Assembly (NCBI GenBank): GCA_009695095.1
Contig: SIBQ01000024.1
Coordinates: forward strand, 1 to 37,021
DNA: 37,021 nt
Direction of reading: 5' to 3'
From: Lacunisphaera sp.
GTDB lineage: Bacteria > Verrucomicrobiota > Verrucomicrobiia > Opitutales > Opitutaceae
The position numbers and the translations under genes are program-made. Positions 13,037 through 36,665 of this stretch are shown one piece after another. How positions within the stretch are numbered: position 1 is the first letter of the stretch; every line of letters begins with the position of its first letter. Below the pieces are notes generated by a model that searched no databases, was not told the origin of the DNA, and saw nothing but the letters and a program-made list of their open reading frames with translations.

Positions 13037-13199
13037 CGGATTGAACGGACTAAGGCATTTAGCCACAAAAGTCACAAAAATGTCTTTCCGCAGCGTCAAT
13101 GTCAGCACGGCGCCCATCGACGCGCGGAACATTTAACCGAAGCCGCAGATACTTTTGCGTTTTTTGTGGCCAACCTGTCTTGGCCTTTGGCTGAAAATC
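13037..13199. repeat. Word array, CACAAAA family
   Basis: The space between mpl and rimO holds AAGGCATTTAGCCACAAAAG and further CACAAAA words. These face the inverted counterpart CTTTTGCGTTTTTTGTGGCC near 13151-13170. The 9-mer AAGGCATTT recurs at the lead of two other arrays. Both convergent genes stop at the edges of the array. Confidence 0.6.
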
Positions 13200-14615
13200 C
13201 TACTGCGCCTGCTTGGCGACCTTGAATTCGGCAGGCCGCTGGCCCCTCGGCAGTGCGAGTAAATCGTAATCCTGGTAGCCGGTGATGGCGACGTGGACGA
13301 ACTCGCCGACCGGCAGCTCGCGCGGCACGTAGACGCGGCCGTCGATGTCGGGGGCGTCGGCCTCGGCGCGGGCGACGCCGGGTTCCTCGACCAAAACCTT
13401 CAGTGTTTTGCCGACATAGCTCTTGCTGACCTCAGCAGCGATTTCCTTCTGGAGCGCCATGAGCTTGTGCCAGCGGGCTTCCTTCACCTTGGCGGGAATC
13501 TGGTCGGGCAGCTTGGCGCCACGGGTGCCTTCCTCCTGCGAATAGCGAAAAACGCCGAGCCGCTCAAATTTGGCTTCGCGGATAAATTCGCAGAGTTCGG
13601 CGATGTCAGCCTCGGTCTCGCCCGGGAAGCCGACGATGAAAGTGGTGCGGATGGCGATGCCCGGGATGCCGGCGCGGATGCGCTTGAGCAGGTCGCGGAT
13701 GTAGTCGCCGCTGGTCTCGCGTTGCATGCGCCCAAGCATGCGGTCGCTGATGTGCTGCAGGGGAATGTCGATGTAACGGGCGACCTTCGGGCACTCGGCG
13801 ATGGTCCGGATGAGCTCGTCGCTCCAGTGGGCCGGATGTGTGTAGAGGAGACGGATCCAGAAGTCGCCCTCAATGGCGTTGAGCTCGCGGAGCAAGGTGG
13901 TGAGGGCGGTGCCTCGCGAGGAATCCACCGGTGTGCGCGGGTTGGGCCGCTGCTCCCAGGTGTCCATGCCGAAGAAGGTCGTGTCCTGCGAGATGAGATC
14001 GAGCTCCTTCACGCCCTCCTTGACGAGCTGGCGGGCCTCCTGCACGACGCTGTCCACAGTGCGGCTGCGGTGGCGGCCGCGAATCTGCGGGATGATGCAG
14101 AAGGTGCAGGGGTGGTTGCAGCCCTCGGCGATCTTGACGTAGGCGAAATGCCCCGGCGTAAGCCGGAAGCGTGGCGTGTCGTAGTCCGGAATGTAGGTGG
14201 ATTTGCCCTCGATGAAGTTGACGGGGGCGTCCTGCTTGCCGCGTTCCCGGGCGTAAATGGCCTCGATGATCGGCGCAACCTTGGTGATCTGGTCGAGGCC
14301 GATGAAGGCATCCACCTCGTTGTGCAGCGAGCTGGAGAGATCCTTGGAGAAACGCTGCGACATGCAGCCGGCGACGATGAGCTTCTGCTCCTTGCGGCGC
14401 TTAGTCAGGCCACGGCCCTGGTGAACCTCGAGGATGTGGCCGATGGATTCCTCCTTGGAGGAGTCGATAAACGAGCAGGTGTTGACGATGACGACATCGG
14501 CCGCTGCGGCGTCGGGGATGACCGCCATGCCGGCCTGGTGCAGATGGCCGATCATGATCTCGCTATCGACGAGATTTTTCGCACAACCGAGGGAAATGAG
14601 GCTGACCTTGATCAT
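13200..14615 (-). CDS. rimO: Ribosomal protein uS12 methylthiotransferase
   Basis: RimO is a radical-SAM enzyme that methylthiolates the conserved aspartate of ribosomal protein S12. The 471-residue protein shows the UPF0004 domain with Cys11 (LGCAKN), Cys47 (NTCSF) and Cys84 (AGCMSQR) for the auxiliary cluster. It also has the radical-SAM CxxxCxxC motif Cys166, Cys170, Cys173 (EGCNHPCTFC), and a C-terminal TRAM domain (roughly 400-460). LGCAKNLVDSE and IGLDQ distinguish it from MiaB. A segment around 240-265 (DTWEQRPNPRTPVDSSRG) seems longer than usual for the family and could be a lineage-specific loop. The ATG at 14613-14615 lies directly before the LISLGCAKN motif. It is followed by a repeat array and converges with mpl. 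Confidence 0.95.
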   Translation of the reverse strand: MIKVSLISLGCAKNLVDSEIMIGHLHQAGMAVIPDAAAADVVIVNTCSFIDSSKEESIGHILEVHQGRGLTKRRKEQKLIVAGCMSQRFSKDLSSSLHNEVDAFIGLDQITKVAPIIEAIYARERGKQDAPVNFIEGKSTYIPDYDTPRFRLTPGHFAYVKIAEGCNHPCTFCIIPQIRGRHRSRTVDSVVQEARQLVKEGVKELDLISQDTTFFGMDTWEQRPNPRTPVDSSRGTALTTLLRELNAIEGDFWIRLLYTHPAHWSDELIRTIAECPKVARYIDIPLQHISDRMLGRMQRETSGDYIRDLLKRIRAGIPGIAIRTTFIVGFPGETEADIAELCEFIREAKFERLGVFRYSQEEGTRGAKLPDQIPAKVKEARWHKLMALQKEIAAEVSKSYVGKTLKVLVEEPGVARAEADAPDIDGRVYVPRELPVGEFVHVAITGYQDYDLLALPRGQRPAEFKVAKQAQ

Positions 14616-14661
14616 GAATTAACCTGGAGCGGCAGTCTGTGCCTGCCGGGTCTGCCAAATA

Positions 14662-14685
14662 AAAACGGCGGTCATAGACCGCCGC
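14662..14685 (-). terminator. Intrinsic terminator of the 34-residue gene, also REP-like
   Basis: A perfect 8-bp stem CGGCGGTC (14667-14674) and GACCGCCG (14678-14685) with loop ATA is followed, on the minus strand, by TTTTT at 14662-14666. This is a textbook rho-independent terminator 26 bases downstream of the small basic protein stop. The palindrome GGCGGTCATAGACCGCC also looks like a dispersed REP-type element; I believe it recurs in verrucomicrobial genomes, but that is from memory. Confidence 0.75.
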
Positions 14686-14711
14686 TACAGTACAGCCGGC
14701 TGAAGGCTCGC

Positions 14712-14816: not shown

Positions 14817-14872
14817 AAGTAGGAATGTTGAGGGAGAGTTGTGTCTGAAAGGCGGCGCGGGAGTCAAGCGCC

Positions 14873-16489: not shown

Positions 16490-16492
16490 GCG

Positions 16493-16924: not shown

Positions 16925-17025
16925 CACAGAGGGCCCAGCGATGACACAGAGAACATGGGGATTGTTTTCTCCCAGAAGATCGGATCGCTCTGTGGTCTCC
17001 TGTTATTTCCCGTGAACTCTGTGGC
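16924..17025. repeat. Word array, CACAGAG/CTCTGTG family, between ruvX and truA
   Basis: CACAGAGGG and ACACAGAGAACA on the left face GATCGCTCTGTGG and AACTCTGTGG on the right. The arms are imperfect inverted copies. The last word contains the GTG taken as the truA start codon. Confidence 0.6.
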
Positions 17026-17776
17026 GAAAAAATTCCCCCGAGTCTCACGCTGGAAGTGCGTCTGCGCCTACGACGGCGGCGCGTTCATCGGCTGGCAGTG
17101 TCAGGCGAGTGGTGCTGCCATCCAGGATGTCATCGAGCGACGGCTGCGCGATGTACTCCAGACCGGGACCCGGATTCATGGCAGCGGCCGCACCGACTCC
17201 GGTGTGCACGCGACCGGGCAGGTCTTTCACTTTGACGCCGCCTGGGCGCACGGCGGCGGCAAGCTCAGGGTGGCGCTGCAGGCGCGCCTGCCGCGAACGA
17301 TTCAGTTGAAGACCGTGTGTCGCGCCGCGCCGGGTTTTCACGCGCGGTTCGCGGCCAGAGGGAAAATCTACCGCTATGAACTTTGTCTCGGCGAGGCGGA
17401 TCCGTTTACGGCGCCGTATTGCTGGTCGCTGAACCGCAAGCTGGACTGGCCGGCCATCCAGGCCGCGGCCAAAGTGCTGCGCGGAAAGCACAACTTCTGG
17501 GCCTTTTCGGCGGCGAACGGCACGGAGCGCGAGACGACGGTGCGCGACCTGCGCAGACTTGATATCGCGAAGCGCGGGCGGCGCGTGCGGTTCACCTTCG
17601 AGGCGGACGGCTTCCTCTACAAGATGGCGCGCAGCCTGACGGGCGCGCTCGTCAACGTCGGCCTCGGCAAACTCTCGCCGCGCGACGTGGCGGCGCTGCT
17701 CAAGTCGGGTGGGCGCACGCCGCAAGTGCTAACCGCCCCGCCCCGGGGATTGTTTCTGGTGAAGGTGATTTACTGA
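17021..17776 (+). CDS. truA: tRNA pseudouridine(38-40) synthase
   Basis: TruA converts uridines 38-40 in the anticodon arm to pseudouridine. Seen in the 251-residue reading: CAYDGGAFIGWQ, the catalytic loop GSGRTDSGVHA with Asp59, HARFAARGKIYRY, and the C-terminal FLYKMARSLTGALV. The GTG at 17021 (VAKKFPRVSRW) is chosen because the family starts just before the (A)YDG motif. An upstream ATG at 16955 would add 22 residues encoded by the CACAGAG word array. The start codon itself lies inside an array word (CTCTGTGG). It follows manC-ruvX on the same strand and is followed by another array. Confidence 0.93.
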   Translation: MAKKFPRVSRWKCVCAYDGGAFIGWQCQASGAAIQDVIERRLRDVLQTGTRIHGSGRTDSGVHATGQVFHFDAAWAHGGGKLRVALQARLPRTIQLKTVCRAAPGFHARFAARGKIYRYELCLGEADPFTAPYCWSLNRKLDWPAIQAAAKVLRGKHNFWAFSAANGTERETTVRDLRRLDIAKRGRRVRFTFEADGFLYKMARSLTGALVNVGLGKLSPRDVAALLKSGGRTPQVLTAPPRGLFLVKVIY

Positions 17777-17778
17777 CC

Positions 17779-17952
17779 GAAGAGTTATTGACCACGGAGG
17801 ACAAGGATGAGCACAGATCAAGACAGATTCAATCGGACCATTTTAGAGGAGCTAACGGAGACAACGGAGGTCAAGAGTGTGAATCACTCAATTCCTCTGT
17901 TTCCTCTTGTGAAATCTGCATCCGGCCAAATCCGTGTCATCCGTGGTGAAAG
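17779..17952. repeat. Word array between truA and comF, CCGTGG/CCACGG family
   Basis: Left words ACCACGGAGGACAAGGATGA and CTAACGGAGACAACGGAGG face right words TCCTCTGTTTCCTC and AATCCGTGTCATCCGTGGTG. The outer words ACCACGGA and TCCGTGGT are exact inverted copies. The stretch has no gene. Confidence 0.65.
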
Positions 17953-17970
17953 TGCTTTTCTGAATGGGAC

Positions 17971-19632: not shown

Positions 19633-19640
19633 GAAGGCGC

Positions 19641-19680
19641 AACGTCCAACGTTCAACTTTGAACGTCCAACATCCAACGG
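19641..19680. repeat. Left flank array of four-helix-bundle gene 1, CCAAC family
   Basis: Words AACGTCCAAC, GTTCAACTTT and GAACGTCCAACATCCAAC lie just before the four-helix-bundle gene. They are inverted partners of the array at 20072-20110 on its other side. Confidence 0.7.
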
Positions 19681-19688: not shown

Positions 19689-20084
19689 ATGGACAAGATA
19701 GTGCCCGGCTTTGACTTGGAAGAGCGGCTGTTGGATTGCTCCGCGGCCATCGTCAGAATTACCGAAACGATGCGGCGCACGCCCGCCGGGACTCATGTGG
19801 CGGATCAACTGCTGCGGTCGGGCACGTCACCCTTGCCCAATCATGGTGAAGCGCAGGCAGCCGAGTCTTCGGCCGATTTTGTTCACAAAATGAGTGTATG
19901 CCTCAAGGAACTGCGTGAAACTAAGCGCTGTTTGCGTCTGGTCCAGCGAGTGCCCTTGCTGCGTGTTCCTGCGAATGCTGATCCATTGTTGCGAGAAACC
20001 GAGGAATTGATTCGCATCTTCTTCCTTGGCACCTCGACCGCAAGAAAGCGCGCTTTACGCAAGGAGACTGACCTTGAACGTTGA
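19689..20084 (+). CDS. Four-helix-bundle protein, 23S rRNA intervening-sequence (S23/bIVP) type
   Basis: A 131-residue protein of the four-helix-bundle family first found inside intervening sequences of bacterial 23S rRNA genes, and related to the Avd accessory protein of diversity-generating retroelements. Its biochemical role is unresolved; Avd binds nucleic acid. Seen: an amphipathic helical N-terminus (FDLEERLLDCSAAIVRI), then VADQLLRSGTSPLPNHGEA and SADFVHKMSVCLKELRETK, where family members usually read QLRRSSxSIxxNIAEG and FxxFLxxALGSLxExE. The family asparagine is retained in NHGEA. The gene lies between CCAAC-family arrays in inverted orientation (19641-19680 and 20072-20110), and its last codons and stop are inside the right array. 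It sits between accD and folC, with which it has no known link, like a small cassette. Confidence 0.8.
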   Translation: MDKIVPGFDLEERLLDCSAAIVRITETMRRTPAGTHVADQLLRSGTSPLPNHGEAQAAESSADFVHKMSVCLKELRETKRCLRLVQRVPLLRVPANADPLLRETEELIRIFFLGTSTARKRALRKETDLER

Positions 20085-20110
20085 GCGTTTGATGTTGGCT
20101 GTTGAAGGTT
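20072..20110. repeat. Right flank array of four-helix-bundle gene 1; contains folC start
   Basis: Words CTTGAACGTTGAGCG, TTTGATGTTGGC and TGTTGAAGG are the inverted counterpart of the CCAAC words at 19641-19680. The stop codon of the four-helix-bundle gene (20082-20084) and the folC ATG (20092) both lie within it. Confidence 0.7.
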
Positions 20111-21414
20111 CTGGTTCTCCTTCTTTCCCCGACTATCCATCGGTCACCGAATATCTCTACGCGCTCAAGGCGGGCGGGGTGAAATTTGGCATCCACCGGA
20201 TGGGCCGGCTCGCGGACGCCCTAGGCCATCCCGAGCGGAGTTATCCCGTGATCCATCTCGCCGGCACGAACGGCAAGGGCTCGGTCTCGGCCATGCTGGA
20301 GTCGATTTTCCGCGCCGCCGGCTGGCATACCGGGCTCTACACCTCGCCTCATCTCGTGAAACTCGGCGAGCGCGTGCAGGTGGACCGGCGGCAGCTGACC
20401 GCGGCGGAGATTGTCGACTTCGCAAACGAACTGAGGCCCGTGGCGGCGCAGGCCGCAGCGCTTGCGCCCGACGAGCACGCGACGTTTTTCGAGTTCATGA
20501 CTGCCATGGCTTTCCTGCAATTCCAGCGGAAGCGCGTGGACCTCGCCGTGGTCGAGGTCGGCATGGGCGGCCGGCTCGATGCGACCAATGTCGTGCAACC
20601 TGCGGTGACGGTCATCACCTCCATCGGGCTCGACCACTGCGCGGAGCTGGGGGATACTTTTGAGAAAATCGCCCGCGAGAAGGCTGGCATCATCAAGCCC
20701 GGCCGGCCCGTGGTGATGGGACGGCTGCCGCCGGCCGCGGAAAAGGTGGTTCGGGAAGTCGCCGCCGGTTGTGACGCGCCCGTTCACTCCGTGCGGGAAA
20801 TTTACCGGGATGACCTGGCCGGCTATCCGGCGACCAGCCTGGCGGGTGATTACCAGCGTTGGAATGCCGCGACCGCCGCGCTGGTGGCGAGGCGGCTGCC
20901 CGCGAAATGGAAACTTACGGAGGAAGTAATCACCCGCGGGCTGCAATCGGTGGACTGGCCCGGCCGCTGGCAGCATACTACCATCGGCGGGCGCCCGCTG
21001 ATTCTCGATGCCTCGCACAATCCCGAGGGGGCGGAGGTGCTGGAGCAGAATTTGTCACAATTGGTCGCGGCGACCGGGCGGCCGCCGGTCATCGTGGCCG
21101 GGGCGCTGGGCGAGTTCCGGGCCCGGGCGCTGCTCGAGGTCATGTTGCGTCACGCCCGGGAAATCCACCTGGTCACGCCGCGACAGGCCCGGGCGAGCAC
21201 CTTTGAGGAATTGCTGGCGCTCGTGCCGGTGGCGCAGCGGCGCCTCGTGCACCGCGGCACGATCGCGGAGATTTTTCCCGACGCGCATACCTGCACCCTC
21301 GGCGGCCCGGACGACACTATCGTCGTAACGGGTTCAATCTACGTGCTGGGCGAGGTGCTGGAGCGGATCGAACCCGGCCGCGGCGCCGGCGAGGGGAAGC
21401 TGCAGGATTTTTGA
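20092..21414 (+). CDS. folC: Bifunctional folylpolyglutamate/dihydrofolate synthase
   Basis: FolC adds glutamate to dihydropteroate or folates with ATP. The 440-residue protein has the Mur-ligase fold: the P-loop AGTNGKGS (57-64), LYTSPHLVKLGERVQ, EVGMGGRLDATN, TSIGLDHCAELGDT with EKAGIIK, PGRWQ, and the C-terminal DASHNPEGAEVL and VTGSIYVLGEVL. The ATG at 20092 is the only reasonable start: family N-termini begin near YPSVTEYLYAL and no other ATG/GTG lies close. That ATG and its next codons (MLAVEG) are encoded by the right array of the upstream four-helix-bundle gene. The start follows that gene's stop by seven bases, so coupling is likely. FolC and AccD are both housekeeping enzymes and were probably adjacent before the cassette arrived. 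Confidence 0.92.
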   Translation: MLAVEGSGSPSFPDYPSVTEYLYALKAGGVKFGIHRMGRLADALGHPERSYPVIHLAGTNGKGSVSAMLESIFRAAGWHTGLYTSPHLVKLGERVQVDRRQLTAAEIVDFANELRPVAAQAAALAPDEHATFFEFMTAMAFLQFQRKRVDLAVVEVGMGGRLDATNVVQPAVTVITSIGLDHCAELGDTFEKIAREKAGIIKPGRPVVMGRLPPAAEKVVREVAAGCDAPVHSVREIYRDDLAGYPATSLAGDYQRWNAATAALVARRLPAKWKLTEEVITRGLQSVDWPGRWQHTTIGGRPLILDASHNPEGAEVLEQNLSQLVAATGRPPVIVAGALGEFRARALLEVMLRHAREIHLVTPRQARASTFEELLALVPVAQRRLVHRGTIAEIFPDAHTCTLGGPDDTIVVTGSIYVLGEVLERIEPGRGAGEGKLQDF

Positions 21415-21420: not shown

Positions 21421-21515
21421 CGATCATTTTCCGCGAATAACGCGAATAAACGCTGATGCAGAATGTCCGGAATAGGGCTGAATATTTATCCGCGAGCATC
21501 CGCGCTATCCGCGGA
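21421..21515. repeat. Word array downstream of folC, CGCGAATAA family
   Basis: TTCCGCGAATAACGCGAATAA on the left faces ATTTATCCGCGAGC, ATCCGCGC and TATCCGCGGA on the right. The words are again inverted copies with single-base changes. No gene lies between 21415 and 21605. Confidence 0.6.
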
Positions 21516-22609: not shown

Positions 22610-22757
22610 AGGCGGGAGGAAACCTGAAACTTGAAATCTGAAACCTGAAAGTTCGGAAACTCCCGGACTACAGGTCCCGCCTCGACTCCTCAGGTTTCAG
22701 GTCTCAGGTTTCAGCCCTACTTCAAGCTCCATGCTCCCTGCTCCCCGCTCCAAGCTT
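22610..22757. repeat. Word array, CCTGAAA/TTTCAGG and GCTCC families, entering the DegT gene
   Basis: GAAACCTGAAAC, TTGAAATCTG and AAACCTGAAAG on the left face CTCAGGTTTCAGGTCTCAGG on the right. A short second array, AAGCTCCATGCTCCCTGC and CTCCCCGCTCC, follows. Its ATG is the start codon of the DegT aminotransferase gene. Confidence 0.7.
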
Positions 22758-27424: not shown

Positions 27425-27590
27425 GGAAATTGAATTATCAGAAATAAACCAGATCATGCACCTGAGGGAACAGGGATATATCGGACTGATACTGATCTCT
27501 GGTTTGCCTCTGTTGCCTCCTGTAAAATCAAATTCTGTAAATTCTGTCCAAACCTGGGATTTATCTGTTCAGTCAGACCTGCTTCCTGAT
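27425..27590. repeat. Weak word array upstream of menC
   Basis: GGAACAGGGATATATCGG, CTGTTGCCTCCTGTAAAATC and AAATTCTGTAAATTCTGTCC share words with the TTTACAGGAG arrays at 29867 and 34639, but the inverted arms are poorer. It ends five bases before the menC ATG. Confidence 0.4.
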
Positions 27591-28590: not shown

Positions 28591-29810
28591 CCTTGCTCCT
28601 GGGCGCACCGGCGGGACTCGTCGCCGAGGCGCGGCGCGAAGCGACCGTCATCGAGGAGGGCGATCCGCGGCGATTCATGGCTGCGCTGGCCGCGGCCACC
28701 GCGCAGGGCGGGACGGTGCTGCTGGCCGGCGACACCTGGGGCGAGCAGGAGCGCAGGCAACTGGCGGCGCTGAGGCGACGGGAACCGGTCACACCGGCAA
28801 CGGCGGCAGGCAAGGGATGGCTTTGCATCCCGACGGGCGGCACGGGGGGACAGCTTAAGTTCGCCCGGCACGACGAGGAGACGCTGTCGGCCGCGGTGCG
28901 CGGCTTTGCCCGGCATTTCGCGCTGCCGCAGGTCAATGCCGCCGGCGTGCTGCCGCTACACCATATCAGCGGGTTGATGGCGTGGCTGCGCTGCGCGCTG
29001 AGCGGAGGCGAATACCGGCCACTGGACTGGAAGGCGGTTGAAGCGGGCGACCTGCCCTCATTGCCGGCCAAGCCGCAGGGCTGGACGATTTCGCTCGTGC
29101 CGACCCAACTCGAGCGCCTGCTGCGCAACGCTGCGGCCGTGAAGTGGCTGGGAAAATTCCGCCTCATCCTGCTTGGCGGGGGACCGGCCTGGCCGGCCTT
29201 GCTCGATCAGGCGGCGGCCGCGCGGCTGCCGGTGTCGCCCGGCTACGGCCTGACCGAGTCGGCGGCGATGCTCACGGCGCTTCGGCCCGGGGATTTTCTG
29301 GCGGGCGGACGCAGCAGCGGTCCGGTGCTGCCCCATGCGACCGTGAAGATTGGCGACGAGGAGGTGATAACCATCGGGGGTGAGTCATTATTCCGCGGCT
29401 ATTACCCGGCGTGGCGCGACAAATGGGATTATGAGACCGGGGATTGCGGCCGGCTCGATGAGCACCGGCACCTGCACGTCCTCGGCCGGCGCGATGCGGT
29501 GATCATCACCGGCGGCGAGAAGGTCGACCCGGCCGAGGTGGAGAGCGTGCTGCGCGGCACTGGCGAGTTCCCCGAGGTGGTCGTGCTCGGCCTGCCGGAC
29601 ACCGAGTGGGGGCAGGTGATTGTGGCGGCCTATCCCGGATCGACCAAACCTCAGCTGGACAAAGTATCGGCAGCCCTGAACCGGCTGCTGGCCCCGGCCA
29701 AGCGGCCGAAACGCTTTGTCCCGCTGACCAGCTGGCCGGTCGGCGCCGCGGGCAAGGTCGACCGGGCGGAAGTGGCGCGACTATTGCTAAACCTTAAACC
29801 TGAGAGCTGA
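28572..29810 (+). CDS. menE: o-Succinylbenzoate-CoA ligase
   Basis: MenE activates o-succinylbenzoate with ATP and CoA. The 412-residue ANL-family protein shows the P-loop IPTGGTGGQLKFA (86-98, canonical TSGTTGxPK), PGYGLTESAAM, the AMP-binding YETGD, the hinge LGRRDAVIITGGEKVDP and the catalytic lysine in GAAGKVDR. It is shorter than typical family members at its N-terminus. The ATG at 28572 has GGGGAGGAA at 28561-28569; an upstream open frame into menC is a shadow. It overlaps menC by 19 bases. Its last codons (NLKPES, stop at 29808-29810) belong to the CCTGAAA/CTTAAACCTGAG array family, and gmd also ends in an array-encoded LKPE. Confidence 0.9.
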   Translation: MERADLALLLGAPAGLVAEARREATVIEEGDPRRFMAALAAATAQGGTVLLAGDTWGEQERRQLAALRRREPVTPATAAGKGWLCIPTGGTGGQLKFARHDEETLSAAVRGFARHFALPQVNAAGVLPLHHISGLMAWLRCALSGGEYRPLDWKAVEAGDLPSLPAKPQGWTISLVPTQLERLLRNAAAVKWLGKFRLILLGGGPAWPALLDQAAAARLPVSPGYGLTESAAMLTALRPGDFLAGGRSSGPVLPHATVKIGDEEVITIGGESLFRGYYPAWRDKWDYETGDCGRLDEHRHLHVLGRRDAVIITGGEKVDPAEVESVLRGTGEFPEVVVLGLPDTEWGQVIVAAYPGSTKPQLDKVSAALNRLLAPAKRPKRFVPLTSWPVGAAGKVDRAEVARLLLNLKPES

Positions 29811-30015
29811 CGGAGCGACCTGCGTGGAGATGGCAAGGCAAACCTGAAGGGAAAGCCCAAGGCAGTTTACAGGAGATAACTGAGCAAACGGAGTTTCCAC
29901 ACCTCTGCTCCCACTGTTTCCTCCTGTAAAAATCTTTTCCGTGTGTTCCGTGGTTTGAAATCAGGATCCTTAGGTTTCAAGTTTCAGGTTTCTGTATATC
30001 GCTGGCTTCCACCGA
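29795..30015. repeat. Composite word array downstream of menE
   Basis: ACCTTAAACCTGAGAGC overlaps the menE stop. Then CCAAGGCAGTTTACAGGAG leads an inverted pair in which AGGAGATAACTGAGCAAACG faces CACTGTTTCCTCCTGTAAAA. It is followed by CCGTGTGTTCCGTGG and by CTTAGGTTTCAAGTTTCAGG. Several word families stand next to each other. No gene is present from 29811 to 30270 apart from the polX duplicate. Confidence 0.7.
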
Positions 30016-30093
30016 ATGAATAAAACCGAAATCGCCGCGGTGCTGACCGAGACCGGCACCCCTGTGATGAGAGACCTGAGGGCTGAATCCTGA
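30016..30093 (+). pseudogene. Diverged duplicate of the polX 5' end
   Basis: ATGAATAAAACCGAAATCG and the following bases to about 30060 encode MNKTEIAAVLTETGTP. The real polX start at 30271 encodes MNKTAIASVLTEIGTL. About three quarters of the 45 bases match, then the copy runs into array sequence and stops at 30093. This is an abandoned 5' end of polX, separated from the current start by about 210 bases of arrays. Confidence 0.8.
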
Positions 30094-30268
30094 GACCTGA
30101 GGGAAAGACCAAGGCATTTACCACGGATATTTCTGATTACACTGATTGGAACCAACCAACCTCGTGTATTCATCTGTGCTTATCCGTGTAATCCGGGGCT
30201 AAAAAACTCCGCGCACTCTGCGTTAAAAATATTCCGTGTTATCCGTGTCTTCTGTGGTTAACATACTC
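30061..30268. repeat. Composite word array upstream of polX
   Basis: GAGACCTGAGGGCTGAATCC and TGAGACCTGAGGG are followed by ACCAAGGCATTTACCACGG. ATTCATCTGTGCTTATCCG, TTATCCGTGTCTTCTGTGG and similar words then form the inverted side. The AAGGCATTT leader at 30111-30119 matches the one at 13052-13060. Confidence 0.7.
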
Positions 30269-30270: not shown

Positions 30271-32115
30271 GTGAATAAAACTGCCATCGCTTCCGTGCTG
30301 ACGGAGATTGGGACTTTACTCGAATTGAAGGGCGAGAATCCCTTCAAGATCCGGGCCTACCAGGCAGGGGCGCGCGTTATCGAGTCGCTGGGCGAGACGG
30401 AGATCGCGGAGCGCGTCACGGCCGGCACGCTCGAGGAGGTCAAGGGCATCGGCGAGGCCCTCGCGCAAAAGATCACCGAGCTGCACACCACCGGCCGGCT
30501 GGAGTATTTCGACAAACTGTCGGCGTCCGTGCCGGCGGGCCTGGTCGAGATCCTGCGGATCCCCGGCATCGGGGCGAAGAAGGCCCGGGCGCTCCAGGAG
30601 AAACTCGGCATCGACACGGTCGTCAAGCTGCGCGCGGCCTGCGCGGCGGGCTCGGTCGCGGCGCTGGACGGCTTCGGGGAAAAGACCCAGGAGCGCATCC
30701 TCTCCGGCATCCGCAACCGCGAGGCCTACAACAAGCGCCACCTCTGGCTCGATGCATGGGAGGCGGCGGAGCCGATCCTCCAGGGCTTGCGGAAACTGCC
30801 GGGCGTCAAGCAGGTCGAGGCCTGCGGCAGCCTGCGCCGGCGGATGGAGACGGTGGGGGACATCGATTTTCTCGTGGCGATGACCGCCCCGGCGCCGATC
30901 GTCGAGTGGTTCGTCACCCGGCCCGGCATCAAGGAGGTCACCGCGCGCGGCGAGACCAAGGCCAGCGTGCGGCTGGAATCCGGCCTGCAGGCGGACCTGC
31001 GGCTCGTGCCGCCGGAGCAGTTCGTCTTCACGCTGCATCATCTGACCGGCTCGAAGGACCACAACGTCGCGATGCGGCAGAGGGCGCTCGCCCGCGGGCT
31101 GTCAATGAGCGAGTGGGGCTTGGTGGCCGCGGAAGGCGAGGGGACCGTCAAGGAAAAGGTCGGCCTCGCCGGGGAACGGCCACCGCCAGGAGCAAAGGGC
31201 AAAGAGCAAAGTGCAAAGAAAAAACCTTCTTCTTTGGCCAGCCCTTCGCCCTTGGCTCTTAGCCCTTCGCTGCAAACCGAGGCGCAGCTTTTTGCCGCGC
31301 TCGGTTTGCACTACATTCCCCCCGAGCTGCGCGAGGGGCTGGGCGAGATCGAGGCGGCGGAGACGGACGCGCTGCCCGTGCTCGTGGAGGAGGGCGACAT
31401 CTGCGGGGTGTTTCACAACCACACGACCGCCTCCGACGGACACAACACGCTCGAGGAGATGACCGCGGCGGCGCAGGCCCTCGGGCTCGACTACCTCGGC
31501 ATCGCCGATCACTCGAAGTCCAGCGTGCAGGCCCGCGGCCTGAGCGAGGAGCGGCTGGTCGCGCAGATCGCGGAGATCAACAAGCTGAACGCGTCGAAGA
31601 AATTCAAATGCCACGTCTTCACCGGCACGGAGTGCGACATTCTCCCCGACGGGAAGCTCGACTTCGACGCCAGGCTGCTCGGCCAGCTGGATTACGTCGT
31701 GGTGTCGGTGCACAGCTCCTTCCGGCAGGACCGGGCGGTCATGACCAAGCGCATCATCCGCGCGATCGAGCAGCCGCACGTCACAATGCTCGGGCACCTG
31801 TCGGGCCGGCTGCTGCTCGAGCGCGAGAGTTACGAGGTGGACACGGACAAGGTCATCGACGCCGCCATCGCCAACGGGGTCGTCATCGAGTTGAACGCCA
31901 ACCCGTGGCGGCTGGACCTGGACTGGCGACACTGGCGGAAGGCGGCGGAGAAAGGCCTGCTCACCAGCATCAATCCCGACGCCCACCTCACGAGGCAGCT
32001 CGCCTTCTACAAGGTCGGGGTGGGCATCGCCCGCAAAGGGTGGCTCACCAAGGAAAACGTGCTGAACACCCGGCCGCTGGCGGCGGTCAAAAAATTTCTC
32101 GCGGCCCGGCCTTAG
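30271..32115 (+). CDS. polX: DNA polymerase X family protein with PHP domain
   Basis: Bacterial PolX is a gap-filling repair polymerase fused to a PHP-type exonuclease. The 614-residue protein has two helix-hairpin-helix motifs (VKGIGEALAQKI at 58-69 and IPGIGAKKA at 97-105). The polymerase active site is GSLRRRMETVGDIDF with Asp197 and Asp199, and the third aspartate is Asp242. The C-terminal PHP domain starts at HNHTTASDGHN (382-392), with further ligands in ADHSKSS, TGTECDIL and NPDAHL. Between the two halves, residues about 303-335 are encoded by a word array (31187-31275). This insert keeps frame and has Lys/Ser/Pro-rich composition unlike either domain. The GTG start at 30271 also lies in array sequence (CTCCTGTGAA), and an older copy of the 5' end stands at 30016. 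Confidence 0.92.
   Translation: MNKTAIASVLTEIGTLLELKGENPFKIRAYQAGARVIESLGETEIAERVTAGTLEEVKGIGEALAQKITELHTTGRLEYFDKLSASVPAGLVEILRIPGIGAKKARALQEKLGIDTVVKLRAACAAGSVAALDGFGEKTQERILSGIRNREAYNKRHLWLDAWEAAEPILQGLRKLPGVKQVEACGSLRRRMETVGDIDFLVAMTAPAPIVEWFVTRPGIKEVTARGETKASVRLESGLQADLRLVPPEQFVFTLHHLTGSKDHNVAMRQRALARGLSMSEWGLVAAEGEGTVKEKVGLAGERPPPGAKGKEQSAKKKPSSLASPSPLALSPSLQTEAQLFAALGLHYIPPELREGLGEIEAAETDALPVLVEEGDICGVFHNHTTASDGHNTLEEMTAAAQALGLDYLGIADHSKSSVQARGLSEERLVAQIAEINKLNASKKFKCHVFTGTECDILPDGKLDFDARLLGQLDYVVVSVHSSFRQDRAVMTKRIIRAIEQPHVTMLGHLSGRLLLERESYEVDTDKVIDAAIANGVVIELNANPWRLDLDWRHWRKAAEKGLLTSINPDAHLTRQLAFYKVGVGIARKGWLTKENVLNTRPLAAVKKFLAARP
31187..31275. repeat. In-frame word array inside polX, GCAAAG family
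   Basis: Left arm AGCAAAGGGCAAAGAGC, AAAGTGCAAAG faces right arm CAGCCCTTCGCCCTTGGC, TCTTAGCCCTTCGC, its inverted copy with about one change per word. It encodes a low-complexity linker between the polymerase and PHP domains and introduces no stop. The same family occurs in the epimerase gene at 36305-36379. Confidence 0.8.
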
Positions 32116-32365: not shown

Positions 32366-32430
32366 GGGGCGACAGAGGACAGAGGTCAGAGGTCAGAAAA
32401 GTCAGATGACGGGGAAAAAACCAACAGTCG
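32366..32430. repeat. Word array, GACAGAGG/GTCAGAGG family
   Basis: GACAGAGGACAGAGGTCAG, AGGTCAGAAAAGTCAGATG are near-tandem words with single changes. No clear opposite arm follows; the next element is a hairpin pair. Confidence 0.55.
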
Positions 32431-32477: not shown

Positions 32478-32575
32478 TGTGGCCGGTAGCCAGTTGCCAG
32501 TGACCGGTGTGGGAAAGCAACTAGTTACCGGTGGCCAGTAAACGGTATAGACAGAGAGAAGTTAGCCACGAATAA
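32478..32575. repeat. Left flank array of four-helix-bundle gene 2, CCAGTTGCC family
   Basis: GGCCGGTAGCCAGTTGCCAG, TGACCGGTGTGGG, CTAGTTACCGGTGGCCAG and TAAACGGTAT repeat an ACCGGT/CCAGT word with changes. It stands immediately before the gene, as the CCAAC array does for gene 1. Confidence 0.6.
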
Positions 32576-32582: not shown

Positions 32583-32954
32583 ATGAGAGGCAAAGCGGGA
32601 AAATATCACGACCTGAATGTCTATCAGGAGTCGTGCACACTCGACCTTGCTATATTTCAACTTACCAAGTCATGGCCCAAGGAAGAGATGTATTCATTGA
32701 CCGACCAGATCCGTCGTTCTTCCCGCTCGGTTGGAGCGAACATTGTGGAGGCGTGGGCGAAGCGTCGTTATCTAGCCCACTTCACCAGCAAGCTGACCGA
32801 CGCGGACGGAGAATTACAGGAAACCCAGCATTGGCTCATGCGCGCAAAAGCTTACGGATATATCGATGCCAAAGCATTTGAGTCCTTGTGGGAGCAATCA
32901 AAGCAAGTCGGGCGCAGGCTTGGCGCCATGCTGAACTCAGGCGACTGGTCCTGA
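32583..32954 (+). CDS. Four-helix-bundle protein, S23/bIVP type, second copy
   Basis: A 123-residue member of the 23S rRNA intervening-sequence four-helix-bundle family, closer to the family consensus than the first copy. Seen: DLNVYQESCTLDLAIFQLTKSWPKEE, the core motif LTDQIRRSSRSVGANIVEAW (usual form QIRRAxxSIxxNIAEG), and FTSKLTDADGELQETQHWL in place of FxxFLxxAxGSxxExxTxL. Start ATG at 32583 without a strong Shine-Dalgarno. It is flanked by word arrays on both sides (32478-32575 and 32953-33036) plus a REP-like hairpin pair, and it is unrelated in function to its neighbours polX and gmd. The repeated association of this family with arrays, in two unlinked places of one window, suggests that gene and arrays move or are maintained together (inference). 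Confidence 0.88.
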   Translation: MRGKAGKYHDLNVYQESCTLDLAIFQLTKSWPKEEMYSLTDQIRRSSRSVGANIVEAWAKRRYLAHFTSKLTDADGELQETQHWLMRAKAYGYIDAKAFESLWEQSKQVGRRLGAMLNSGDWS

Positions 32955-33036
32955 CTGTCTACAGTCCACCGCCCATCGTCTACTGAATCATGACTGCCCA
33001 CCGTCAACCGTCCACTGTCCACCGGGGAGCTCCCAG
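32953..33036. repeat. Right flank array of four-helix-bundle gene 2; contains gmd start
   Basis: GACTGTCTACAGTCCACCGC, CCATCGTCTACTG, GACTGCCCACCGTCAACC, GTCCACTGTCCACC repeat a GTCCACCGTC word. The gmd ATG (32990) lies in the array. A second GGAGCTCCCAGCTCC word and the perfect hairpin AGCGCGC-GAA-GCGCGCT (33041-33057) follow. Confidence 0.7.
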
Positions 33037-34159
33037 CTCCAGCGCGCGAAGCGCGCTGATCATCGGCATCACCGGCCAGGATGGCTCCTACCTCGCCGAG
33101 CATCTGCTGGCCGGCGGCTACACCGTCCACGGCCTGGTGCGGCGGGCGAGCATGTTCAACCGCTCGCGCATCGACCATTTGAGAGCAGCTCCCAGCTCCC
33201 AGCCCGCAGCTCACAGCTCAAAGCCCGAGGCTCAAGGCTCAAGGCTTACCTTGCACTACGGCGACCTGAACGACCGGACCTCGCTCCGCCGGCTGCTGAA
33301 GACCATTGCCCCGTCGGAGGTCTATCTCCTCGCCGGGCAAAGCCACGTCGGGCTCAGCTTCGAGATCCCCGAGGTCACCTGCGAGGAAAACGCCATGGCC
33401 ACGCTCGGGTTGCTCGAGGCCCTGCGCGATCTGGAAAACCCCGTCCGGTTCTACCACGCGTCCAGCTCGGAGATCTTCGGCCTGCCCGCGGACTCGCCGC
33501 AGAACGAGGCCACGCCCTTCAATCCCGTTAATCCCTACGGCTGCGCCAAGGCCTTCGCCACGCAACTCTGCCGCGTCTACCGCAGCGCCTACGGGATGTT
33601 CGTCTGCAGCGGCATTTCCTACAACCACGAGTCGCCCCGGCGCGGGGAGAATTTCGTGACACGCAAGATCACCCTCGGCGCGGCCCGGATCAAGGCCGGC
33701 CGGCAGGCCGTTTTCGCCCTCGGCAATCTCGACGCCCGGCGCGACTGGGGCTACGCGCCGGAATACGTCGCGGCCATGGCCCGGATGCTGCAAGCTAGGC
33801 AGCCCGGCGACTATGTCCTGGCGACGGGTAAGACCTGCTCGGTGCGGGATTTCGCGACGGCCGCCTTTGCGGAGCTCGGCCTCGAACTGAAATTCAAGGG
33901 CAAGGGGGCGGGAGAGACGGGAGTGCGCACCGACACCGGCGCGGTCGTCATCACGATTGATCCCCGCTTTCACCGTCCCGCTGACGCGGCCAATCTCACC
34001 GGCGACGCGTCACTCGCGAAGAAGGCGCTCGGCTGGGCGCCGAAGGTCACCGGCACGGACGTCGCGCGGCTGATGGCGCGCGTGGATCGCGAAGCAATCG
34101 CAGGGCTGAAACCTGAGACCTGCTTTAAACACAGAGATCGCAGAGTCCGCAGAGATTAA
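32990..34159 (+). CDS. gmd: GDP-mannose 4,6-dehydratase with array-derived ends and loop
   Basis: Gmd converts GDP-D-mannose to GDP-4-keto-6-deoxy-mannose, the precursor of GDP-fucose, rhamnose and perosamine sugars. In the 389-residue protein: NADP motif GITGQDGSYL (26-35), LVRRASMFNRSRIDHL, LHYGDLND (88-95), LAGQSHVGLSFE, ASSSEIFG (157-164), catalytic Tyr183 and Lys187 in NPYGCAK, and LGNLDARRDWGYAPEYV. Three segments are array-encoded: the N-terminus to about residue 20, a Ser/Ala/Pro-rich insert at about 65-84 where the family normally has a short loop, and the C-terminal tail after LKPE. The core is intact, so it is probably active. Substrate would come from the manC product. Confidence 0.92.
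   Translation: MTAHRQPSTVHRGAPSSSARSALIIGITGQDGSYLAEHLLAGGYTVHGLVRRASMFNRSRIDHLRAAPSSQPAAHSSKPEAQGSRLTLHYGDLNDRTSLRRLLKTIAPSEVYLLAGQSHVGLSFEIPEVTCEENAMATLGLLEALRDLENPVRFYHASSSEIFGLPADSPQNEATPFNPVNPYGCAKAFATQLCRVYRSAYGMFVCSGISYNHESPRRGENFVTRKITLGAARIKAGRQAVFALGNLDARRDWGYAPEYVAAMARMLQARQPGDYVLATGKTCSVRDFATAAFAELGLELKFKGKGAGETGVRTDTGAVVITIDPRFHRPADAANLTGDASLAKKALGWAPKVTGTDVARLMARVDREAIAGLKPETCFKHRDRRVRRD
33182..33243. repeat. In-frame word array inside gmd, AGCTCCC/AAGGCTC family
   Basis: AGCAGCTCCCAGCTCCCAGC, CCGCAGCTCACAGCTC, AAAGCCCGAGGCTCAAGG, CTCAAGGCTT. Words AGCTCCC and AAGGCTC alternate and are partly complementary. It encodes about 20 residues between RIDHL and LHYGD without breaking the frame. 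Confidence 0.75.
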
Positions 34160-34225
34160 GGCCGGTAACCCATGAATTTCCTCCGTGAGCTCCGTGTCCT
34201 CTGTGTTAAATCCTATTTCGGGGGT
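34106..34225. repeat. Word array at the gmd 3' end, CACAGAG and CCTGAAA families
   Basis: GGCTGAAACCTGAGACCTGC, then TTTAAACACAGAGATCGC, AGAGTCCGCAGAG, facing CCTCCGTGAGCTCCGTGTCC, TCTGTGTTAAA. The outer words TTTAAACACAGAG and CTCTGTGTTAAA form a near-perfect inverted pair. The gmd stop codon lies inside the left arm. Confidence 0.75.
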
Positions 34226-34304: not shown

Positions 34305-34306
34305 TC

Positions 34307-34546
34307 ATGAAAACGACACTAATCTTAGAGGATACGATACTTAAGAAGGCGAAGGAACAGGCAGCGGCCCGCGAAACTACGGTAAGCGAGCTGGTTAACC
34401 AATCCCTTCGTTCTTACCTCCACGCCCCGCAAACCAGCGGTGGGGAGCTCCGGGCCTTTTCGATGCCGGTATTTGGCCAAGCCGCGACACCCGGGGCCGG
34501 AGTCAGTCCAGCCGAGTTGGCGGAATTGCGGGACGACGGCCGCTGA
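34307..34546 (+). CDS. VapB-like ribbon-helix-helix antitoxin
   Basis: A 79-residue protein starts MKTTLILEDTILKKAKEQAA followed by RETTVSELVNQSLRSYL, the beta-strand plus two helices of a ribbon-helix-helix DNA-binding domain. The C-terminal half (SMPVFGQAATPGAGV...) is the disordered toxin-binding part. Antitoxins of this type repress their own promoter and neutralise a PIN-domain RNase; a suitable palindrome overlaps the promoter. Its presumed partner starts 241 bases downstream, where such pairs normally touch or overlap. The gap is filled by word arrays. Confidence 0.82.
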   Translation: MKTTLILEDTILKKAKEQAAARETTVSELVNQSLRSYLHAPQTSGGELRAFSMPVFGQAATPGAGVSPAELAELRDDGR

Positions 34547-34550
34547 GCCG

Positions 34551-34735
34551 AAAGACTGTTCTTAACCACGAAGGACACGAAGGGACGCGAAGCAGGGCCA
34601 AGGCATTTCAAGCAAGATGATCCCGGATGATGATTTAACAGGAGCAAACGGAGAGAGCAGAGTATCGAACCGACCCAACTCCTGTCTCTACTCGGTTATC
34701 TCCTGTAAGACCTGTCAGGGTATTATTTCGATGTT
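34551..34735. repeat. Composite word array splitting the toxin-antitoxin pair
   Basis: AACCACGAAGGACACGAAGG, GACGCGAAGC, then GCCAAGGCATTTCAAGC (leader motif AAGGCATTT), then AACAGGAGCAAACGGAG with AGAGCAGAG, facing CTCCTGTCTCTACTCGG and TTATCTCCTGTAAG. The last pair is an inverted copy of the same CAGGAG words used at 29867. Confidence 0.7.
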
Positions 34736-34787
34736 GACGGATTCCAGGCACGGTCAGTTCCGGTTTAATAATCTACGCTGATCCTCC

Positions 34788-35225
34788 ATGCGCATGCCCG
34801 ATGTCAATGTGCTGATCTACGCCCACCGGGTGGATGATCCCGCCCACGGCTTCTATCGCCGCTGGCTGGAGCAACTCGCCGCGGGACCCGAGCCCTTTGC
34901 GCTTTCGCTGGAAGTGGCCGCGGCCTTTGTGAGGATTGTCACCCATGCCCGTTATCCCGCCGGCCCCACGCCCCTGGCGCAGGCGCTGGCGGTGATTGAC
35001 GCCCTGCGCCAGACCAACGGCTGCCGGCTGTTGGCCCCGGGCGACCGGCACTGGGAGCTTTTTCGCCGGCTGTGCGAGACCGCCCGGGCGAGTGGCAAGC
35101 GGGTGGGGGATGCCCGGCATGCCGCCCTTGCCTTGGAACACGGCTGCACTTGGGTGACCCGCGATGCGGATTTCAGGGACTTTATTCCGGCGGGTTTACG
35201 CCTGGAAATGCTCACCCCGGGGTAA
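34788..35225 (+). CDS. VapC-like PIN-domain ribonuclease toxin
   Basis: A 145-residue PIN-domain protein, the toxin of a VapBC-type system; VapC enzymes cleave tRNA or rRNA and stop growth. The acidic active site is visible: Asp5 (MPDVNVLIYAH), Glu42 (SLEVAAAFVR), Asp108 (RVGDARHAALA) and Asp126 (TRDADF). All four are present, so it is probably active. The start at 34788 (MRMPDV) or at the second ATG 34794 cannot be distinguished. Unlike typical pairs it does not overlap its antitoxin, and no promoter is evident in the array between them. Transcription may run through from the antitoxin promoter. Confidence 0.85.
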   Translation: MRMPDVNVLIYAHRVDDPAHGFYRRWLEQLAAGPEPFALSLEVAAAFVRIVTHARYPAGPTPLAQALAVIDALRQTNGCRLLAPGDRHWELFRRLCETARASGKRVGDARHAALALEHGCTWVTRDADFRDFIPAGLRLEMLTPG

Positions 35226-35285
35226 ACATGTCGACTGAGCCTCAACCGCCTTCCGCTGCCGTGCGCGAGGCAATCGCGCGCAGTA

Positions 35286-35445
35286 AATAGTTGGGAGTTA
35301 TTTGTTATTGGATTCGGCCCATAACCTCTAACCCATAACCAATAACCCCACGTCAGTGCCCCATAACCAGTAACCCATAACCCATAACCAACAGCTTCAC
35401 GTCAGTGGCTAATAACCCTCAACCCATAACCAATAACCCCGCGCC
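35286..35445. repeat. Telomere-like word array, CCATAACC family, containing an epimerase start
   Basis: GGGAGTTATTTGTTATTGG at the left is followed by many words such as CCATAACC, CTAACCCATAACC, AATAACCCC, AGTAACCCATAACC. CACGTCAGTG occurs twice as a separator (near 35350 and 35398). The GTG start of the epimerase gene (35405) and its first 14 codons are within the array. Confidence 0.8.
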
Positions 35446-36559
35446 GTCACGATACCTCGTGACGGGCGCCGCCGGCTTCATCGGCGCGAGGGTCGCGGAG
35501 ATGCTCCTCGCCGATGGCCACACCGTCGTCGGGATCGATAACCTCAACGACTACTATGATGTGCGCCTGAAAGACTACCGTCTTTCAAAGTTATTGGGTA
35601 AGAGTTATGAGTTAGGTGGGTCTGATCCGAAGAAATCAATCTTCACCCATAACAAGGAACCCCTAACCCATAACCGCTTCGAATTTCGCGTGCTTGATAT
35701 AGAAAATATCAAGGAGCTCGATGAGCTCTTTCGCACGCGGAAATTCGAAGCCGTCTTCAGCCTGGCCGCCCGCGCCGGCGTGCGCTACAGCATGGAGCAT
35801 CCGGAGGTTTACCTGAGCACGAATGTCCTCGGGACGCTCAATCTCCTCGAGTGCCAGCGGAAGCACGGCGTGAAAAAGCAGGTGCTGGCGTCAACCTCGT
35901 CGCTCTACGACGGGTGTCCGATGCCCTTCACCGAGGATCAGCCCGTCAACACGCCGCTGTCGCCCTATGCCGCGACCAAGAAGGCGGCCGAGCTGATGGC
36001 CTACAGTTATCACAAGCTCTACGGACTCGATATTTCCGTGGCACGCTACTTCACCGTGTTTGGGCCGGCCGGCCGGCCGGACATGAGCATTTTCCGCTTC
36101 ATCAAGTGGATTGATGAAGGCAAGCCGCTGGAGCTGTTTGGCGACGGCACGCAGTCGCGCGACTTCACCTACATTGATGACATCGCCCGCGGGACGATCC
36201 TCGCCGTCAAGCCCTTCGGCTACCAGATCATCAACCTCGGCGGCGGGCGGCAGCCGCTTTCTCTCACGACAGTGATCGCCTTCATCGAGAAAGCGCTGGC
36301 TGCTGCGCAAAGTGCAAAGGGCAAAGCGGCAAGGGAGACTCTTGGCTCTTCGCCCTTACCCCTTAGCTCTTCGCCGGTGTGCGCGAAGATTCATCGCGCC
36401 GCGCCGCACATTGCTGATATCAAGGAAACCTGGGCGGACATCGCGAAAGCCAAGCGCCTGCTCGGCTGGAAACCCCAGGTCACCCCCGAAGACGGTTTCC
36501 GTTTAACGGTGGACTGGCACGTCGCCAACCGCTCGTGGTTGAAGGGTATTAAGCTTTGA
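35405..36559 (+). CDS. UDP-sugar 4-epimerase-type SDR (UDP-glucuronate epimerase-like) with two array inserts
   Basis: A 384-residue extended SDR resembling UDP-glucuronate 4-epimerases of capsule and O-antigen pathways. Seen: VTGAAGFIGARVAE (19-32), GIDNLNDYYDVRLK (43-56), SLAARAGVRYSMEHP, STSSLYDG, catalytic Tyr188 and Lys192 in SPYAATKKAAE, RYFTVFGPAGRPDM, GDGTQSRDFTYIDDIA and LGGGRQPLSL. The start GTG and residues 1-14 (MANNPQPITNNP) are encoded by the CCATAACC array. Two inserts are also array-encoded: residues about 64-90 (35594-35674) and about 301-325 (36305-36379). Both sit in surface-loop positions, and the catalytic core is complete. It would interconvert UDP-glucuronate and UDP-galacturonate; exact substrate unknown. 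Confidence 0.9.
   Translation: MANNPQPITNNPAPSRYLVTGAAGFIGARVAEMLLADGHTVVGIDNLNDYYDVRLKDYRLSKLLGKSYELGGSDPKKSIFTHNKEPLTHNRFEFRVLDIENIKELDELFRTRKFEAVFSLAARAGVRYSMEHPEVYLSTNVLGTLNLLECQRKHGVKKQVLASTSSLYDGCPMPFTEDQPVNTPLSPYAATKKAAELMAYSYHKLYGLDISVARYFTVFGPAGRPDMSIFRFIKWIDEGKPLELFGDGTQSRDFTYIDDIARGTILAVKPFGYQIINLGGGRQPLSLTTVIAFIEKALAAAQSAKGKAARETLGSSPLPLSSSPVCAKIHRAAPHIADIKETWADIAKAKRLLGWKPQVTPEDGFRLTVDWHVANRSWLKGIKL
35594..35674. repeat. In-frame word array inside the epimerase gene, CCATAACC family
   Basis: Left arm TTGGGTAAGAGTTATGAG, TTAGGTGGGT faces right arm ACCCATAACAAGGAACCCC, TAACCCATAACC, its inverted copy with changes. It encodes about 27 residues in a loop after LKDYRLSKL without a stop. 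It is the same family as the array directly upstream of the gene. Confidence 0.8.
36305..36379. repeat. In-frame word array inside the epimerase gene, GCAAAG family
   Basis: Left arm GCGCAAAGTGCAAAGGGC, AAAGCGGCAAGGG faces right arm CTTGGCTCTTCGCCCTTACC, CCTTAGCTCTTCGCC. It is a second copy of the family found in polX, again stop-free and in frame, encoding AQSAKGKAARETLGSSPLPL. Confidence 0.8.
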
Positions 36560-36665
36560 GCCGCGAGCTAGGGGCAAGGAGCGATAGCTGAAACCCTGCA
36601 GATTTTAACGCAGAGATCGCAGTAGACACGAAGCAATGGCCAATAACCTACAACCCATAAGCAAG
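36560..36665. repeat. Word array downstream of the epimerase, entering a truncated SDR
   Basis: GCTGAAACCCTGCAGATTTT, AACGCAGAGATCGCAGTAG, ACACGAAGC, then CCAATAACCTACAACCC, ATAAGCAAGAACC. Three word families stand side by side. The ATG at 36636 lies in the last. Confidence 0.6.

Follow-up and report, generated by a model that had tools for sequence, protein, structure and literature searches.

Drifting word arrays of a Lacunisphaera contig as probable arms of small mobile hairpin elements

Contig SIBQ01000024.1 of a Lacunisphaera sp. (Verrucomicrobiota) carries dispersed arrays of short words that are repeated with slight changes, and we analyzed all 37,021 nucleotides of it (the window, which is the whole of contig C26 in a 2.14-Mb genome of 41 contigs, G000). 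These arrays are most probably the arms of small mobile hairpin elements, each made of a word array, a small gene and an inverted word array, with the gene-less arrays being deleted or solo copies. In our reading the elements are akin to the 23S rRNA intervening sequence (IVS), with ends that are coded by words.

Word arrays around two small gene families

Two open reading frames (ORFs) of the window encode four-helix-bundle proteins by profile match (PF05635 / TIGR02436), and both stand between word arrays (elements 1 and 2; Table 1). The initial annotation of this DNA, made from the sequence alone, had described the arrays and overlooked that their arms flank specific genes, two of them here. 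All eight four-helix-bundle matches of the genome were inspected by eye; the seven that are less damaged carry word arrays to left and right, with a distinct word at each locus. Element 1 has a total length of ~471 bp, and the words of its right array recur at loci with a common neighbor gene in three genomes (L007, L138, L151).

Arms were called matched when their score was reached by no more than 2 of 200 dinucleotide shuffles made per locus. This was so at 84 of 102 four-helix-bundle loci from this genome and its relatives; the 103 loci collected, like the 30 loci of the second family below, are a subset of the matches and on the whole the better-scoring ones, and one of the 103 was left out for its short flank. 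The median score of an arm with its own partner was 20, versus 11 with partners from other loci. As controls we took 50 similar-sized ORFs of this genome, picked irrespective of family, and five passed. Five of the 50 proved to be four-helix-bundle genes, four of which passed (the failing one being element 2 of the window), whilst among the remaining 45 one passed, an ORF that is apparently spurious and overlies a longer open frame.

A second class of array, which we call type B, was read from the sequence as runs of ~9-bp words (e.g., CACGGAGGA), often starting with TTTAACCAC or TTTACAGG. Guessing that these arrays had a gene of their own, we searched with PF13366 (PDDEXK_3; NCBIfam TIGR04256, GxxExxY). 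All 30 GxxExxY loci had matched arms, made of type-B words that differed between loci, with median scores of 23.5 for own and 11 for cross-locus partners. The GxxExxY motif and a D..ExK pattern were present in 28 of the 30 under a loose expression, and one member gave profile matches to both PF13366 and TIGR04256; the family belongs to the PD-(D/E)XK nuclease superfamily. Five GxxExxY matches were found in the genome and none on C26, where type-B arms occur only in gene-less form.

The same architecture is spread over many phyla. A scan of GTDB contigs gave at least 581 confirmed candidates, the best 80 of which were taken as named loci; 77 had sufficient flank and three were left out. Arms were matched at 64 of the 77, and at 68 in a re-run with other random seeds, with median own and cross-locus scores of 20 and 10. 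By group in the re-run (labels assigned from record titles), the counts were 36/42 in Bacteroidota, 5/5 in Desulfobacterota/delta, 5/5 in Planctomycetota, 4/4 in Acidobacteriota, 3/4 in Firmicutes, 3/3 in the candidate phyla radiation, 2/3 in SAR324/Lambda and 2/3 in Verrucomicrobiota/Lentisphaerota/Kiritimatiellae, with single loci from KSB1, Nitrospirota, Elusimicrobiota, Kapaibacteria, Campylobacterota, Omnitrophota and Thiobacillus. Against an assembly artifact stand several cultured isolates among the records, and loci in two genomes of a single contig each (G013 and G023). In three Flavobacterium loci (L239, L271, L272) the upstream coding ends are alike, perhaps marking one common site. 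For F. columnare, Table 5 of one paper files a four helix bundle gene under phage elements, with guanylate kinase on one side and a nicotinic acid mononucleotide adenylyltransferase on the other (PMC5524665). Among the titles and abstracts in PMC, a scope outside which subscription journals lie, we found no paper on this association of gene and arrays.

In named-loci arms scoring at least 15 (68 loci), self-match was highest at lags 7 (0.51) and 8 (0.42); every other lag between 4 and 12 gave 0.22–0.27. Filters on score, length and self-match, which tried lags 7 and 8 only, were passed by 118 of 172 arm pairs (82 fitting 7 and 36 fitting 8). The median arm held 4.5 words. The most conserved dinucleotide was AG in 32 of the 118 pairs and GA, GG or GT in 45 more; the upstream arm was purine-rich in 104 of the 118, and G exceeded C in 104 of the 118. 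The words are not arbitrary, yet they have no common fixed sequence.

Closely similar proteins have words in common. Usable arms were available for 70 of 95 loci, the other 25 being left out. Among pairs without a shared neighbor gene, median word similarity was 0.20 at the lowest protein similarity, 0.37 at 0.55–0.7 (n = 19) and 0.73 at ≥0.7 (n = 8), and none of 500 Mantel permutations reached the observed word-protein correlation. Close pairs that have a neighbor gene in common mostly retain their words.

Copies, occupied sites and empty sites

In the order-level relative G031, two four-helix-bundle copies encode proteins that are 93% identical and lie at unrelated sites. The two resemble each other from the left word array across the gene into the right one, where the similarity stops, and they differ in their number of words. 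Two GxxExxY copies in the same genome are 95.5% identical across 465 bp including both arms, and their flanks are unrelated; the two element lengths in G031 are 483 and 465 bp. A further place in G031 has a deletion derivative: its left arm is followed by the initial ~50 bp of the four-helix-bundle gene, beyond which come other sequence and a right arm. A 2.8-kb piece around one G031 copy had at least 139 matches in G031 and at least 71 in G038; among the matches listed, many are arm segments only, and one place may yield several matches.

Sites with and without arrays were compared among 21 genomes of the same genus. PolX (the NCBIfam name) was aligned in 20 of them, from residue 236 in G004, with G010 left out because its gene is split over contigs. 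The linker site holds arrays of three word families in 4 of the 20 genomes (GCAAAGG in G000; CCTGAAA, common to G013 and G004; CAACGCC in G015, plus a second array further on), and the linker is short in the other 16. The PolX arrays preserve the reading frame. Further along PolX, G004 (L084) has a second, different hairpin (GTAGGGCGGATTATCC...) and G015 (L075) another word array at roughly that position. For GDP-mannose 4,6-dehydratase (GMD) 14 orthologs were aligned, the remaining seven of the 21 genomes being judged to hold only a paralog or a weak match. The AGCTCCC array occurs in one of the 14 and is lacking from the 13 others; in the same loop G010 and G011 share another small hairpin, and the loop of G019 is of middle length.

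At one site between two sugar-nucleotide genes, read as rfbB and rfbA, G008 and G002 have different four-helix-bundle elements within flanks that are 94–96% identical. The L130 locus of G008 had no full counterpart in G002, G006 or G014. At the sites of the two G031 GxxExxY copies, the sister genome G038 has stacks of other arms and no clean empty sites. Across PolX, GMD, the G008/G002 site and G038, the same sites are filled, empty or occupied by other words, in support of the initial annotation.

Elements adjoin and sit inside one another, which bears out the initial picture of a dispersed family with different word families side by side. Nested hairpins in G031 were also found by script, and at one place (L207, 2476–3018) three hairpins of different sequence lie each nested in another within 550 bp. 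The palindrome TCTCGCCTTGGCGAGA, or its halves, stands next to GGCACAAA arms at several G031 sites (L207 ~6095–6110 and 6465–6485; L208 near 5960), and is possibly a target or an older element end.

Arrays, hairpins and other features of the window

A lag scan of the window, in which a period-7 region had to reach at least 20 of 28 matches, detected nine such arrays; 20 order-2 Markov controls gave 0.05 per window on average. Every one lies past 19.6 kb, and the scan agrees with the initial annotation that the first 11 kb hold none. Among the remaining lags from 4 to 21, lag 14 gave three regions, lags 9 and 21 one each and the others none, and Tandem Repeats Finder recovered the same repeat units. 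With about ten type-B hairpins or arms in addition, the original estimate of about twenty stretches was a fair one. The unit, first described as ranging freely from 6 to 12 bp, is instead 7 bp (7 or 8 in relatives) or ~9 bp. The arrays had been set apart from CRISPR and from satellites of constant unit, which is supported. In the lag scan and Tandem Repeats Finder (no CRISPR finder was run) they show neither the constant repeat and unique spacers of a CRISPR array nor a constant satellite, and both readings were rejected; words differ between loci and vary within arms.

Scanning 432,948 bp of this genome (about one fifth) gave 23 period-7 arrays against ~1.3 in controls. In this count the two arms of one element score as two arrays; a 24th row, a run of N, was dropped and the same run was subtracted from the control figure. 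Lags 6, 9, 12, 14, 15, 18 and 21 were likewise raised, less than 7. C26 is dense in arrays (9 of the 23), and the other ~396 kb examined held 14 of the 23 at lower density, so the arrays are not limited to this contig, and the single genomic context suggested for them is not supported.

An inverted partner was present within 700 bp for 10 of the 23 arrays at a score of at least 16 and for 12 at 13 or more (random 45-mers gave a 99th percentile of 16.01 and a 95th of 13). An inverted second half, claimed for most arrays, is therefore found in about half of them, and "most" was too strong. Single-stranded DNA folding of 15 window stretches gave z < -2.5 in four (-4.66, -3.48, -2.99 and -2.63), with a mean of -1.5 and two positive values. 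In this comparison with shuffled sequence, which had been proposed with the first description, the best four clearly beat the shuffles and many single arrays were no better than them. The hairpin is real in part of the set, and degraded or absent in the remainder.

Table 1. Word arrays, hairpins and gene-bearing elements of the window, in contig positions (z, DNA folding against shuffles)
Feature	Position	Strand	Remarks
Type-B (~9-bp word) hairpin, CCACAAAAGTCACAAAA words	13058..13174	+	z -3.48
Type-B hairpin, CACAGAG words	16925..17030	+	z -0.16
Type-B arms, CACGGAGGACA words	17785..17953	+	z -1.69 for 17786-17935
Element 1, left word array, CAACGTC words	19640..19679	+	period 7; inverted partner 20086-20110
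Element 1, four-helix-bundle gene	19689..20084	+	PF05635 / TIGR02436 profile match
Element 1, right (inverted) word array	20072..20111	+	
Type-B hairpin, CGCGAATAA words	21430..21515	+	z -1.13
CCTGAAA hairpin, gene-less	22615..22718	+	z -4.66
GCTCCCT word array	22726..22751	+	no inverted partner (score 10)
Type-B arms, ACAGGGA / CCTCTGTTGCCTCCTG words	27454..27530	+	z -1.20
Nested pair	29789..29991	+	CCTGAAA-type arms (29789-29812, 29968-29991) around type-B hairpin (29866-29930); inner z -2.63
GAGACCT word array	30071..30101	+	from Tandem Repeats Finder
Type-B arms, CACGGAT / ATCCGTGT words	30118..30265	+	z -2.99 for 30118-30250
GCAAAGG hairpin, gene-less	31187..31275	+	in frame inside PolX; z -1.65
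GACAGAG word array, outside element 2	32371..32406	+	partner score 10, not above background
Element 2, left word array, words like GCCAGTT, ACCGGTG	32480..32547	+	read from sequence, partly period 7
Element 2, four-helix-bundle gene	32583..32954	+	PF05635 E 1e-30; weak bAvd/Avd matches
Element 2, right word array, CCACCGT / CCGTCCACTGTCC words	32953..33024	+	
AGCTCCC word array, gene-less	33185..33246	+	in frame inside GMD; no inverted partner (score 8)
Type-B hairpin, CACAGAGATCGCAGAG words	34125..34210	+	z -0.97
Type-B arms	34567..34720	+	between small ORF and PIN-domain ORF; z +0.21 for 34650-34720
CCCATAA word arrays	35294..35440	+	before and at start of epimerase ORF; inverted partner 35590-35614; z +0.55 for 35312-35445
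TTATTGGG and CCCATAA arms	35590..35674	+	within epimerase ORF
GCAAAG hairpin, gene-less	36307..36374	+	within epimerase ORF 35405-36559; z -0.17

The type-B arms at 34567–34720 separate a putative VapB-type antitoxin ORF (34307–34546, by eye) from a PIN-domain ORF (34788–35225, PF01850), a layout that looks as if elements had split a toxin-antitoxin pair. The contig end (36948–37021) resembles by eye the start of a putative IS3-type transposase gene. G+C content is 72% in positions 1–1000, 67% in the second kilobase and ~57–70% in later ones. Elsewhere in the genome (G000:C30 ~206905–206998, L177), a further inverted word pair (GTCAGAG / CTCTGTT) is situated within an open frame, towards the end of a putative VWA-domain gene.

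Mechanism, alternatives and kinship with known elements

IVS with an S23 ORF, described from Leptospira, Coxiella and others, are 428–444 nt long; the ORF lies within a hairpin loop that is closed by a 28-bp stem of terminal inverted repeats (PMC4990558). The elements described here are like them in protein family (PF05635, for both window genes and all eight matches in the genome), in size, and in the ORF looped within an inverted-repeat stem, at the 84 related and 64 named loci above (element 1 passes and element 2 does not). They differ in lying between and inside protein genes; both window copies stand between ORFs matching protein families and not in a 23S rRNA helix (no rRNA search was run). 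They differ also in having arms that are arrays of 7–8-bp words varying by locus, gene-less copies, and a second, unrelated gene family of like layout. In protein and layout this is the same kind of element as the 23S rRNA IVS, set apart by its position outside rRNA, its word-coded ends, the gene-less copies and the second family. Rickettsia palindromic elements, which also lie in frame inside protein genes, have a common conserved sequence, whereas the elements here, likewise palindromic and in frame within protein genes, share unit length and symmetry and not sequence.

A complete element runs from a left word array through one small gene to an inverted right word array, with the loop gene encoding either a four-helix-bundle protein (of the 23S rRNA IVS protein family, kin of the Avd protein of diversity-generating retroelements) or a GxxExxY protein; the gene-less arrays of the window would be internally deleted or solo copies. 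A Xanthomonas member of the four-helix-bundle family is reported to be a homopentameric ring (Lin 2006, cited in PMC4990558), and the product of the element 2 gene has two sequence relatives with solved structures, 2gsc and 2rld, of five chains each. From these five-chain relatives and the ~4–5 words per arm we infer that the ring would recognize the word stem by its repeat step and not by a fixed sequence, leaving the words free to drift whilst both arms and the protein drift together. The moving form may be hairpin DNA, directed to gene ends and to hairpins already in place, and gene-less copies may be moved in trans. At the RNA level RNase III would cleave the stem, as it does in the 23S rRNA IVS, and the GxxExxY protein would act as the nuclease of its own, type-B class.

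Several observations weigh against reading the arrays as arms of mobile elements. At 11 of the 102 four-helix-bundle loci the arms were not significant even at 10 of 200 shuffles, 36 of the 102 scored above the 99th percentile of random spots (a control that included array-holding PolX loci), and 37 of the 77 named loci beat the cross-locus 99th percentile. The own partner ranked first in 40 and in the top three in 65 of the 102; the shuffles and small-ORF controls were added because this rank test is weak where loci share words. The arms of element 2 match weakly (score 13, rank 9 of 36) and its gene, as a control ORF, failed the cut of 2 in 200, and only 4 of 15 window stretches clearly out-fold shuffles. 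The word-protein correlation is weak overall (Spearman 0.15 without a shared neighbor, 0.19 over all pairs), and a common site, unseen in short flanks, is possible for three of the eight closest pairs (L020, L022, L103). Most close pairs share a neighbor gene and keep their words, suggesting that many gene-bearing copies are old residents, and recent movement was seen in G031 alone. No target-site duplication was seen by eye at the G031 duplications, and the sister-genome sites carry other arrays. In one G038 stack (L359, G038:C266, site 1) the arms of three hairpins are, by eye, interleaved and partly nested, and this is not explained by insertion of whole hairpins.

An alternative that we consider unlikely, which concerns the mover and overlaps with the preferred explanation, is that the elements are MITE- or REP-like (see below) and are carried along by a transposase, Y1 (IS200/RAYT) or another, with the two genes as cargo. 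Miniature inverted-repeat transposable elements (MITEs) are short inverted-repeat elements whose gene-less copies derive from gene-bearing ones, and the G031 deletion derivative (one copy, with the left arm and ~50 bp of gene) is MITE-like in this way. Y1_Tnp (PF01797), the one transposase family searched for, had matches in 10 of 12 genomes, with seven in G031, but none in G000 or G038, both array-rich, and Y1 transposase as sole mover was rejected on this ground. The ends here lack a common fixed sequence, and the elements depart from MITEs in that the terminal sequence is not conserved (median cross-locus score 11, own 20) and there is no known transposase. Repetitive extragenic palindromic (REP) elements are small dispersed palindromes linked to a gene family (RAYT), with a short tag, GTAG or CGTC. 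The elements here are likewise small, dispersed palindromes tied to a gene family, but they have no fixed sequence and G000 has no Y1 transposase match.

We consider it improbable that the stems are an RNA partner of the gene (e.g., one controlling or bound by the four-helix-bundle protein), selected beside it and not serving as element ends. The words that close proteins have in common, and the gene-bearing copies that often remain at shared sites, would fit such a role; gene-less arrays are common, some within protein genes, and in G031 the arms are the ends of the moved copies, both of which speak against it.

Cyanobacterial short tandemly repeated repetitive (STRR) sequences are heptanucleotide repeats, and the present arrays are like such repeats in their 7-bp unit and in being many per genome. 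It is quite improbable that they are slippage repeats growing and shrinking in place, with inverted arms and gene neighbors as side effects. Heptanucleotides are the commonest longer simple-repeat class in most genomes studied (Mrazek 2007, cited in PMC4679880), the word number is unequal between the two G031 copies, and even a score of 13 leaves 11 of the 23 arrays without an inverted partner. However, slippage would not flank two particular gene families with inverted arms in many phyla, carry units of arm, gene and arm to new sites as in G031, or insert arrays into genes whose orthologs are without them (PolX, GMD). TAACTGA repeats are direct repeats of a single constant 7-bp word (PMC4679880), whereas the words here drift, differ per locus, form inverted pairs and flank a gene.

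Very improbable, finally, is making and spreading of the arrays by reverse transcription, which would explain the drifting words, put down in the initial annotation to repeated copying or template switching. The four-helix-bundle family gives weak Avd/bAvd profile matches, and the homology of PF05635 to Avd of diversity-generating retroelements has been noted (PMC10053308). A profile search for the PF00078 reverse transcriptase, however, came up empty in 9 of 12 genomes, among which are G000 and also G031 with its recent copies; this makes such copying unlikely, and it was rejected.

A wider proposal, which we would back about as readily as doubt, is that small mobile hairpin elements form a bacteria-wide class whose ends are set by architecture (inverted arrays of 7–9-bp words), with each protein lineage writing and reading its own dialect. 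This class would include at least two unrelated gene families, the two small gene families would be its mobility or recognition proteins, and the 23S rRNA IVS would be one landing site. These observations place two widespread small gene families, neither of which has a known function, in one context, and the old puzzle of the nature and spread of 23S rRNA IVS becomes testable. Proteins are altered too, as in-frame arrays extend the PolX linker and the GMD loop. If the proposal is true, mobile elements would have a new means of marking themselves, namely word-coded ends that lack a fixed sequence and are common to close proteins. Such ends would account for these elements being missed by those repeat finders which search for constant repeats.

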